From positions 1-32,819 of the forward strand of contig NZ_JALTON010000059.1 of the NCBI RefSeq assembly GCF_027000115.1: a stretch of DNA of 32,819 bases. The letters run 5' to 3'. Source of the DNA: Thiohalobacter sp. GTDB taxonomy: Bacteria; Pseudomonadota; Gammaproteobacteria; Thiohalobacterales; Thiohalobacteraceae. The notes beneath the pieces were generated by a model. That model saw nothing but the letters and a program-made list of their open reading frames with translations, made no database searches and had not been told where the DNA came from. Made by a program: the position numbers and the translations under genes. The first letter of the stretch is position 1, and every line of letters begins with the position of its first letter. Below, piece by piece: positions 4,331 to 32,819 of this stretch.

Positions 4331-5170
4331 ATGTCAGGCCAGCTGTTCGTCGTCGCCACGCCCATCGGCAACCTGGGCGACCTGAGCCCGCGCGCCCGCG
4401 AGACCCTGGCGGCGGTGGACCTGATCGCCGCCGAGGATACCCGCCATTCCCGTCACCTGCTGGCGCATTTCGGCATCCGCCGACCGCTGGTTGCGCTGCA
4501 CGAGCACAACGAACGGGAACGCAGCGGGCAGCTGATCGAACGCCTGCGGGCAGGCGAGTCGGTGGCCCTGATCTCCGATGCCGGCACCCCGCTGATCAGC
4601 GATCCGGGCTACCGGCTGGTGCGTGCTGCGCGCGAGGCCGGGGTGCCGGTGGTGCCGATCCCGGGGCCCAGCGCCCTGATTGCAGCGCTGTCGGTCGCCG
4701 GCCTGCCCACCGATCGTTTCGTGTTCGAGGGCTTCCTGCCGGCGAAGGCGCAGGCGCGCCGCAGCCGGCTGCAGGTGCTGGCCGGAGAGCCGCGCACGCT
4801 GGTGTTCTACGAATCCAGTCATCGTATCCAGGCCATGCTGGGGGACCTCGCCGCGACCTTCGGCGCGGCCCGCGAGGCGGTGCTGGCTCGGGAGCTGACC
4901 AAGCAGTTCGAACAGATCGAGGGCGGGCGGCTGGACCAGCTGTGCGCATGGCTGGATGCCGATGAACATCACCGCCGCGGCGAATTCGTGGTGCTGGTGG
5001 CCGGTGCGCCGCCAGAGGAGGCAGAGGCCGGGGATGCGCGCCGCATGCTGGAGATACTGCTGCGGGAACTGCCGGTAAAGCGCGCGGCGGCAGTGGCGGC
5101 GGAACTCACCGGTCGGCGCCGCAACGAGCTCTACCGGCTGGCGCTGGCGCTTTCCGGGCAGAACTATTAA
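4331..5170 (+). CDS. rsmI: 16S rRNA (cytidine1402-2'-O)-methyltransferase RsmI
   Basis: This 279-residue tetrapyrrole-methylase-fold enzyme has TPIGNLGD at residues 10-17, the family signature ISDAGTPLISDPG from residue 81, and IPGPSA further on. RsmI 2'-O-methylates C1402 of 16S rRNA in the decoding centre, using S-adenosylmethionine. The ATG at 4331 follows CAGAGG with a nine-base gap and starts the conserved domain directly. The frame stays open upstream to 4244, but that part is not conserved. It is divergent from lpoA, the standard order. Oddity: the stop codon TAA (5168-5170) lies inside the left arm of a 285-bp palindromic element, so the final residues may have been set by that insertion. 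Length is normal for the family. Confidence 0.95.
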   Translation: MSGQLFVVATPIGNLGDLSPRARETLAAVDLIAAEDTRHSRHLLAHFGIRRPLVALHEHNERERSGQLIERLRAGESVALISDAGTPLISDPGYRLVRAAREAGVPVVPIPGPSALIAALSVAGLPTDRFVFEGFLPAKAQARRSRLQVLAGEPRTLVFYESSHRIQAMLGDLAATFGAAREAVLARELTKQFEQIEGGRLDQLCAWLDADEHHRRGEFVVLVAGAPPEEAEAGDARRMLEILLRELPVKRAAAVAAELTGRRRNELYRLALALSGQNY

Positions 5171-5449
5171 CCCGGCAACCCAATATGTCGTGTTCAGCCG
5201 GGCTGTGCCGATCCACAGCAAGGCGTCGGCGCGCCGCTGTAGCACCCCTACAGCAAGCGACGACAACGCAGACTGTGGACCGGCACAGCCCGGCCTTTCC
5301 CTTGATCTTGAACAGGTCAGGGATGCAGAGAAAGCCCCTGCCCGGCGTTGTGGCGCTTGCCAAGGGCTGGGCCATTGCCTGCGAGCCACGCCTTGTTCAG
5401 GGGCTTTCTCTGCATCCTGAACACGACATATTGGGTTGCCGGGTTAATA
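5165..5449. repeat. Nested palindromic element, MITE-like
   Basis: A perfect 33-bp inverted repeat bounds the element: 5165-5197 pairs with 5417-5449. Inside are two further long inverted repeats. Stem A is 5198-5218 with 5273-5293 (21 bp, one mismatch) and encloses a small hairpin (GCTGTAG 5236-5242 with CTACAGC 5248-5254). Stem B is 5321-5340 with 5398-5417 (20 bp, perfect). The whole can fold as a three-way junction. The outer arms read TA-TTAACCC...GGGTTAA-TA, so a TA target duplication is plausible, as for IS630/Tc1-mariner-derived MITEs. There is no coding frame. It fills nearly all the space between the convergent rsmI and trhP genes and may terminate transcription in both directions. 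The repeats are seen directly; the mobile origin is inference. Confidence 0.85.
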
Positions 5450-6766: not shown

Positions 6767-6885
6767 CGTGAGGCGTGAGGCGTGAGGAGTGAGGAGTGAG
6801 GAGTGAGGAGTGAGGAGTGAGGAGTGAGGAGTGAGGAGTGAGGAGTGAGGAGTGAGGAGTGAGGAGTGAGGAGTGAGGAGTGAGG
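6767..6885. repeat. Tandem heptamer repeat, 17 units
   Basis: Seventeen uninterrupted 7-bp units fill 119 bases: three copies of CGTGAGG (6767-6787), then fourteen of AGTGAGG (6788-6885). On the minus strand the tract is pyrimidine-rich and lies 18-137 bases upstream of the trhP start. It also lies just past the 3' end of queG. The units are identical within each class, which suggests recent slippage expansion, so copy number should vary between strains. It is not a CRISPR: the units are far too short and there are no spacers. Confidence 0.97.
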
Positions 6886-30524: not shown

Positions 30525-31409
30525 ATGAAGGACCCATCCGGCAACACAGCCATGTCAGGGCTGGCGGTGGCACTCTGCCTGATGGCTGTTTTCTTTTCCA
30601 CCGCTCCCGCCGCGCAGGAGATGACTCCGCCGAGGCAACTGACCTTCGGTTTCCTGCCCATCGTCAGCACGGAACGGCTGGTGCGCCGCTTCGGCCCGCT
30701 GGTGGACTATCTCTCCCGGTCTCTCGGGCGGCTGGTGCGCATGGAAACGGCGCCGGACTTCGAGACCTTCCTGCGTCGCACCCAGCATGAAAGGCGCTAT
30801 GACTTGCTGTTCACGGCCCCCCATTTCTACTATCTGGCCCGGCGGCAGGCAGGCTACCGCGCCCTGGTGCGGGTGGACCGGCCCGGGATGCGCGCAGTCA
30901 TCGTCGCACCGCGGACAGGGCCGCTGAGGACGCTCGCCGACCTGCGCGGCCGCCGGCTGGCCACCGTGGATCCACTGGCGCTCGCCACCATGCTGGTGCG
31001 TGCGCGGCTGCAAGAAGCCGGGCTGGATCCGGACCGGGATCTCGTGCTGGTGCCGACGCCCAGCCACAATGCCTCGCTGCTCAGCGCCCTGCAGGGACAA
31101 GCAGAGGCCGCCTCGCTCATGCTGCCGCTCTTCGAACAGGCCGCGCCCGGGCTGCGCGCCTCCCTGCGCGTCCTGGCCAATACCGGCGTCAGCCCGCACA
31201 TGCCCATCAGCGTGGCCCCCTGGGTACAACCCGAACTCGCGGCCCGCATTCGCGAGCTGTTGCTCGGACTGCGGGAGACTCCCGAGGGCCGGGCGCTGCT
31301 CAAACATCTGAACTGGCCTGGCCTCACGACCGTGGCGTCCGGCAGCTACGAGGGGCTGGCCTGGGCGGCGCCGGCACTGGACACCGCCCTGGGGGATGGT
31401 GCGCCATGA
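30525..31409 (+). CDS. PhnD-family periplasmic substrate-binding protein
   Basis: This 294-residue exported protein has a signal peptide (cleavage near residue 30, after APAAQ) and a type II periplasmic-binding fold of the PhnD/phosphate-phosphonate family. Supporting stretches are LTFGFLPIVSTERLVRRFGPLVDYL, DLLFTAPHFYYLARR and TLADLRGRRLATVDP. The start may be the ATG at 30525 or 30552. No permease or ATPase gene adjoins it. Instead its stop overlaps the ATG of a sensor kinase (ATGA). PhnD-type proteins serve as ligand sensors for kinases elsewhere (AioX with AioS for arsenite; the TtrS sensor domain), so a sensory role is more likely than transport. The ligand is unknown. Confidence 0.85.
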   Translation: MKDPSGNTAMSGLAVALCLMAVFFSTAPAAQEMTPPRQLTFGFLPIVSTERLVRRFGPLVDYLSRSLGRLVRMETAPDFETFLRRTQHERRYDLLFTAPHFYYLARRQAGYRALVRVDRPGMRAVIVAPRTGPLRTLADLRGRRLATVDPLALATMLVRARLQEAGLDPDRDLVLVPTPSHNASLLSALQGQAEAASLMLPLFEQAAPGLRASLRVLANTGVSPHMPISVAPWVQPELAARIRELLLGLRETPEGRALLKHLNWPGLTTVASGSYEGLAWAAPALDTALGDGAP

Positions 31410-32819
31410 ACGGTGTCAAGCCCTGGCGCTCGCTGCGGGTGCGACTGATCGCCAGCGTGGTGCTGGTGGAGGTCGTCATGCTGTCGTTGCTGGTATGGCA
31501 CAACCTCGGCGTCATCCGCGAGGCCCATGCCGACCGCCTGCACGACACCGCCACCAGCATGCTGCAACAGATCACGGCGACGGCTGGCAGCTATCTGGTG
31601 GAAGTGGACTATGCCAGCCTGGAGGAATACCTGCGCAACATCGCCCGCCATCCGGAACTGGCCTACCTGGTGATCATGGACCGGGATGGGCGCATTGCGC
31701 TCAGCCAGGGGGAACCGCCCGCCGGACCGGCGCCCCTGCCCGATGTCCACCCGCTTGCGGCCGATGACGGACGCTACGATGTGCAGGCGGACATCGTGTT
31801 CGGCGGCCGTCCGATGGGCCGGGTGTTGATGGGGTTGTCGCTTGCCCAGATGGAGCAGGCCATCGCCGACGCCCGCGACCGCAGCATCGCCATCGCGGGG
31901 GCGGAAATCGTGCTGAGCATCCTGGTGACCGTGCTCATCGGGGTCCACCTCACCCGCCGCCTGGGCCGTCTGGCGCGGGCGGCCCAGCGCGTGGGCGCGG
32001 GTGACTACGACACCGAGGTGCCCACCGGCCCGGCCGACGAGGTGGGCATGACGGCCTCTGCCTTCAACCGCATGGTCAAGGAAATCTCGCAACGCACCCG
32101 CCGCCTGCAGGAGGCGCTGGCCCGGGAGCGGGTCATCGAGGAAACGGCCATCGACGGCATGATCACCTATGGCCGCGACACCCGCATCCGCTCTGCCAAT
32201 CCCGCCATGCCCGACCTGTTCGGTTTCGACGAGGACAGGCTGGCCGGACAGCCGGCCTCCATGCTGCTCGATGGCGACCCGGACCCCGGCTTCTGGACCC
32301 GGCCCACAGGGCGGCGACGGGAAGCCAGGGGCCGGCGCCGCGACGGCAGCGTCTTCCCGCTGGAGGTCTATGTGGGCCGGGTGGAGATCCACGGCGAACC
32401 GCTCTACGCGGCCACCCTGCACGACATCACCGAGCGCAAGCGGGCCGAAACCGAGTGCAAGACCCTGCTGGAGGGCAACCGTTTCCTGATCCACAAATCG
32501 CTGGCCGTGCAGGAGGAAGAACGCCGCCACCTGGCCCGCGAACTGCACGATGAGCTGGGACAGTGCATGACCGCTATCCAGGCCGACGCCGAACTCATCC
32601 GCGAAACGGCCGGGCGCGACAATCCCCGCGTGGCCGCCAGCGCCGAGGCCATCCTGGACATTTCCTCGAGGATGTACGATGCCGTCCACGCCATGATGCG
32701 CCGGCTCAGGCCCACGGTACTGGACGATCTGGGCCTGGTGGCGGCGCATCATGGCGTGGACGGCATCGTACATCCTCGAGGAAATGTCCAGGATGGCCTC
32801 GGCGCTGGCGGCCACGCGG
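31406..32819 (+). CDS. Membrane sensor histidine kinase, NarL-type (partial; reliable to 32741)
   Basis: The frame starts at an ATG overlapping the binding-protein stop and runs off the window. Two transmembrane helices (about 10-32 and 160-182) flank a ~127-residue periplasmic domain. A HAMP domain (about 182-235), a PAS domain (about 238-355) and a HisKA_3 dimerisation domain follow, with ARELHDELGQ and phospho-acceptor His381. It reaches LRPTVLDDLGLVAA and then enters a fold-back: 32742-32819 is the exact reverse complement of 32626-32703. The last ~26 codons are therefore not real kinase sequence, and the ATPase domain is missing. A LuxR-type response regulator would be expected downstream in the genome. 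Confidence 0.85.
   Translation, partial: MNGVKPWRSLRVRLIASVVLVEVVMLSLLVWHNLGVIREAHADRLHDTATSMLQQITATAGSYLVEVDYASLEEYLRNIARHPELAYLVIMDRDGRIALSQGEPPAGPAPLPDVHPLAADDGRYDVQADIVFGGRPMGRVLMGLSLAQMEQAIADARDRSIAIAGAEIVLSILVTVLIGVHLTRRLGRLARAAQRVGAGDYDTEVPTGPADEVGMTASAFNRMVKEISQRTRRLQEALARERVIEETAIDGMITYGRDTRIRSANPAMPDLFGFDEDRLAGQPASMLLDGDPDPGFWTRPTGRRREARGRRRDGSVFPLEVYVGRVEIHGEPLYAATLHDITERKRAETECKTLLEGNRFLIHKSLAVQEEERRHLARELHDELGQCMTAIQADAELIRETAGRDNPRVAASAEAILDISSRMYDAVHAMMRRLRPTVLDDLGLVAAHHGVDGIVHPRGNVQDGLGAGGHA
32626..32819. repeat. 78-bp perfect inverted repeat at the window end (fold-back)
   Basis: Bases 32626-32703 and 32742-32819 are exact reverse complements, separated by 38 bases. The left arm is good kinase coding sequence (HisKA_3 region); the right arm merely reads it backwards and ends with the window. 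This is typical of a chimeric or hairpin read joined at a contig edge rather than biology. Confidence 0.95.

Follow-up and report, generated by a model that had tools for sequence, protein, structure and literature searches.

Terminal fold-back repeats in a Thiohalobacter draft assembly, very probably snap-back artefacts, and the kinase gene cut by the longest of them

Star et al. 2014 (PMC3946424) describe interrupted palindromes in reads from historic and ancient DNA and propose that short, naturally reverse-complementary stretches form hairpin loops, with trimming by an exonuclease and fill-in. A related report (PMC10908179), in its account of chimeric reads after sonication, presents the PDSM model, in which a strand is joined to its own inverse complement at inverted repeats; its pipeline uses inverted repeats totalling 8 bp or more. 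Foldback and palindrome artefacts, with a strand followed by its own reverse complement, are also described for long reads and whole-genome amplification (PMC12870357, PMC6218980).

The inverted repeat at the right end of contig C59 from a Thiohalobacter sp. draft shares with the palindromes of Star et al. 2014 (PMC3946424), as set out there, a reverse-complement copy at the 3' end and a natural inner part, and we liken it also to their short natural seeds, here only putative, and to their constant 5' to 3' extension on the same strand; it differs in that the copies here are contig tips of a bacterial draft, known from the assembly alone. Like the PDSM chimeras, it runs from a strand into that strand's inverse complement at inverted repeat sequences, although in the model outlined in PMC10908179 two different partial single strands pair, and the model was built for human variant calling. 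The artefacts covered in PMC12870357 and PMC6218980 have the same geometry but a long-read or multiple displacement amplification (MDA) origin, whereas this assembly looks short-read, with k = 127. Our literature searches brought up nothing on point about such artefacts as contig ends, and an account may exist in print.

An inverted repeat inside a kinase gene

The window analysed here is the entire contig (32819 of 32819 nucleotides), one of 63 in a 2.65-Mb draft assembly listed at 100% completeness and 0.03 contamination. Bases 32742-32819 are a perfect reverse complement of 32626-32703, giving 78-nt arms with 100% complementarity around a 38-nt spacer, the right arm thus being anchored on the contig's last base. 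The first-pass annotation had reported that the final 78 bases mirror 32626-32703; direct comparison found the match exact, with reverse complement as the proper term. Under a simple random model, ~1e-37 such 78-nt pairs are expected per window of equal size. We ran a census of inverted repeats (exact arms of at least 16 nt, spacers of at most 300 nt) over 1,558,842 unmasked bases, 59% of the genome and enriched for contig ends. The arms at the C59 right end were the longest in it, and those ranked second and third (56 and 44 nt) likewise finish on a contig's last base.

The repeat falls within a plus-strand gene for a sensor histidine kinase, of which 31406-32746 encodes the N-terminal 447 residues (HAMP, PAS and HisKA_3 by Pfam, and by comparison with relatives) and the HATPase_c half is missing. 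HisKA_3 is found in the window frame (Pfam, E 2.8e-13); NarL-type kinases have HisKA_3 followed by HATPase_c, and here the latter is cut off. The sense frame from 31406 stays open to the contig end for 471 codons, comprising real residues 1-447 and then 24 spurious ones. An antisense frame of 490 amino acids also crosses the artefact; the genuine sequence is already open in antisense, and the artefact merely supplies that frame's beginning. The earlier remark that automatic annotation would yield a false truncated protein and false antisense frames at this end is plausible.

Three relatives carry the kinase intact: the single-contig genome G004 (581 aa, 71% identical over window residues 7-447), the Thiohalobacter sp. 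MAG L131 (74%) and the gammaproteobacterial MAG L132 (70%). In place of the window's ...LDDLGLVAAHHGVDG... all three have ...LDDLGLVAAL..., and none has an inverted repeat at the LGLVAA site. In the G004 protein, HisKA_3 spans residues 371-438 and HATPase_c residues 480-572 (Pfam), which bears out the earlier expectation that an ATPase domain should follow LGLVAA in the kinase.

Judged by alignment, genuine sequence stops within a few bases of 32746, because agreement with the relatives ends there; the following codon is H in the window and L in the relatives. The left arm (32626-32703, plus strand) is genuine HisKA_3 coding sequence, aligning with all three relatives, and genuine too is the 38-nt spacer (32704-32741, plus strand), still coding (LRPTVLDDLGLV) according to the repeat geometry and the relatives. 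The right arm starts at 32742, and about five bases, CGGCG at 32742-32746 (plus strand), perhaps six, are common to gene and copy: they appear to be both real coding sequence (VAA) and the beginning of the arm. The remainder, 32747-32819 as read on the plus strand, is best taken as an artefactual copy of the opposite strand, foreign to the genome at this place, and 32747 itself may be genuine by chance. The copy lies at the extreme end around an inner part that is natural, and its terminal bases leave the genuine locus sequence after 32746. A genuine inverted repeat is not what we see: the contig stops where the arm ends, and the repeat is absent from the three relatives.

Fold-backs at other ends and their straight readings

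We sampled both ends of all 63 contigs and dropped 10 of the 126 ends, belonging to five wholly masked contigs. Exact arms of at least 13 nt anchored on the last base occurred at 7 of the remaining 116 ends: C59_R (78 nt), C8_R (56 nt; the L012 end), C33_R (44 nt; the L037 end), C56_L (28 nt; the L060 start), C38_L (24 nt; the L042 start), C22_L (19 nt; the L026 start) and C28_R (13 nt). No other end exceeded 9 nt. Only 1 of 10,000 random interior pseudo-ends had an arm of at least 13 nt (it measured 14 nt). Three related drafts, from which 38 ends were taken and 10 excluded for N, gave none among 28, with a longest arm of 7 nt. The 1.56 Mb of unmasked sequence contain 11 inverted repeats whose arms reach 19 nt or more and whose spacers do not exceed 60 nt, and 6 of the 11 lie at distance 0 from a contig end; that sample is enriched for contig ends, though its interior repeats sit at arbitrary distances. 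The fold-back ends have spacers of 14-40 nt and arms of 13-78 nt, and their arms are unrelated in sequence, not common to different ends and not conserved in relatives. Anchoring on the last base, recurrence at six other ends and the intact relatives together uphold the initial reading, that of a fold-back artefact where the contig ends within a kinase domain. The mechanism, the place of the missing half and the recurrence within the assembly go beyond the first-pass annotation and are new here.

Three of these ends have a second reading elsewhere in the same genome. The pairs C56_L/C26_R, C38_L/C55_R and C22_L/C7_R each overlap by exactly 126 nt; the partner ends C26_R, C55_R and C7_R continue straight through the fold, and at C56_L, C38_L and C22_L the terminal bases depart from that straight contig. 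The two readings diverge at an inverted microhomology of 4 or 7 nt at the arm's inner edge, the fold starting at CCCGGCC (C56_L), CGCC (C38_L) or GCCCCAT (C22_L), each with its complement across the spacer. Read straight, C26 and C56 give an open frame of 420 aa, and a G004 homologue of 421 aa aligns with C26 over residues 41-220 and with C56 over residues 221-415; the frame is split between the two contigs. For C59_R, C8_R, C33_R and C28_R, no straight-reading partner was found among the contig ends examined. A homologue was found in G004 for C8_R and none for C38_L.

Many contig ends overlap by exactly 127 nt, and because of these overlaps we identify the assembly as de Bruijn with k = 127. 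The 126-nt overlaps fall one below k, presumably as if pruning had cut the first step of the true path beside a chimeric branch. There is an even chance that snap-back chimeras helped to create the breaks in this way, the assembler at three junctions keeping the chimeric branch on one contig and cutting the true path at 126 nt; an ordinary gene would then have been split even though its true sequence was in the data. If this is general, fold-back ends with a 126-nt partner mark breaks that could be found and closed by sequence alone in many high-GC drafts. The corresponding check looks for a terminal fold-back together with a k-1 overlap to a second contig; it works without reads and applies to any draft.

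Proposed origin and competing readings

We consider it very probable, on the sequence evidence at hand, that the repeat at C59_R is a sequencing or assembly artefact made from snap-back (hairpin-primed) chimeric reads taken as the contig tip. The signature points to such chimeras because terminal fold-backs recur, straight partners exist and the folds start at microhomologies of 4-7 nt. In general form, a 3' end would anneal to a 4-7-nt complement lying 14-40 nt upstream and then be extended into a copy of the opposite strand. At C59, a single-stranded 3' end near 32746 would fold back, placing CGGCG on CGCCG 38 nt away; a polymerase would extend the folded end, copying from 32698 back to 32626, and reads from the folded molecule would become the tip of the contig. 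Low true depth, or pruning that prefers the wrong branch, might let chimeric reads become tips. The 5-nt annealing site at C59_R, CGCCG at 32699-32703 (plus strand) with the putative priming end at 32742-32746, is suggested by the sequence and by the short natural inverted matches shown at three other ends (7, 4 and 7 nt); the true continuation is missing here, and the assignment draws on distant relatives in its place. The enzymatic step, and the reason why a piece is missing, are likewise our deductions.

Among other origins, a chimera made by template switching during whole-genome MDA, instead of during library end repair, fares best, and we hold it unlikely. MDA makes inverted chimeras too, and amplification yields many artificial palindromic sequences, as PMC6218980 reports; short microhomology fits MDA and end repair alike. 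Against it, 100% completeness with 0.03 contamination is unlike an amplified single cell, and spacers of 14-40 nt with arms of at most 78 nt are as expected of short single-stranded ends.

That the assembler alone erred, its graph walk turning onto its own reverse strand with every molecule intact, is very improbable. De Bruijn assemblers do merge both strands, and the 127-nt overlaps give k = 127, but the switch occurs at matches of 4-7 nt, far below that k, so the fold must have been in the reads; the arm lengths, 13-78 nt, match no k either. We also considered the 78-nt arm as a k-mer overlap left by the assembler and ruled it out, the end overlaps being 127 nt and the arms varying.

Least credible of all is that the genome itself has an inverted duplication or a hairpin end here, such as the closed end of a linear replicon, or a kinase gene that was rearranged. 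The perfect inverted repeat at an end speaks for it. Against it, seven ends of one assembly are so shaped in unrelated sequences, three have a straight reading on another contig, the kinase gene's continuation lies on C23 in the same gene order as in relatives, and the arms are neither common to the ends nor conserved in relatives. A natural hairpin in any form (terminator, linear replicon end or inverted duplication) was separately rejected on the recurrence and the straight contigs, and a terminator scan of 32400-32819 found no terminator.

The missing kinase half and other features of the contig

Having named snap-back chimeric reads as the preferred origin, we turn to what should follow the break. 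In the relatives the kinase continues with HATPase_c, and next come a response regulator and a 5'-nucleotidase-like gene. Residues 138-214 of the G004 response regulator match C23 at its right end, over bases 60577-60807 of 60809 (minus strand, 75% identity), and the next C23 gene, 5'-nucleotidase-like, matches the corresponding next region of G004 and L131. By alignment with these genomes, ~0.8 kb is absent between C59 and the C23 right end, because the gene order of the relatives resumes on C23. The span between the two matched points, taken from coordinates, is ~811 nt in G004, 803 in L131 and 821 in L132, with a G+C content of 69-72%. Searching genome-wide for the ATPase half of the kinase with the G004 sequence returned only a 37% paralogue (C46) and a weak match (C21). 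A contig filling the gap would comprise ~0.8 kb plus two overlaps of ~126 nt, or ~1.05 kb, and the shortest contig seen has 1,653 bases; a length filter on the deposited assembly probably removed such a contig. The five wholly masked contigs could in principle hold the missing piece, although each has at least 1,653 bases against the ~1.05 kb expected.

For users of this genome, C59 and C23 are neighbours to be placed side by side; 32748-32819 (or, for safety, everything from 32742) should be trimmed, and the kinase should not be taken as a real truncation. At least six further contig ends share this defect, which breaks up at least one other gene. The biological import is small: this is an ordinary two-component sensor kinase, adjoining a phosphonate-binding-like protein and a LuxR-type response regulator, that was cut technically. 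The gene upstream of the kinase (30525-31409, plus strand) encodes the periplasmic phosphonate-binding-like protein (PF12974, by Pfam), and the order is conserved in relatives. This protein, the sensor kinase and the LuxR-type response regulator also occur together in G004 and L131 (L132: part available), and from this gene order we regard the three as a conserved sensory unit.

Other repeats occur on this contig and elsewhere in the draft. A 285-bp element at 5165-5449 is bounded by perfect 33-nt terminal inverted repeats and encloses a nested hairpin (5321-5417); C54 carries a copy of 95% identity, C13 and C55 carry partial ones, and by these copies it is a dispersed MITE- or REP-like repeat. 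A 7-base tandem repeat with a GAGGAGT-like unit occupies about 97 bases (6782-6878). Many interior hairpins measuring ~91-97 bases, in which arms of 16-21 nt flank a spacer of 55-59 nt, occur on C4, C6, C7, C29, C32, C38, C39, C50 and C53, and perhaps form a second dispersed palindromic repeat family. At the left end of C59, bases 1-127 are also the end of C37 and have 96-99% matches near the ends of C31, C58 and C14; this end, judged by those matches and in contrast to the right one, is broken by an ordinary repeat.
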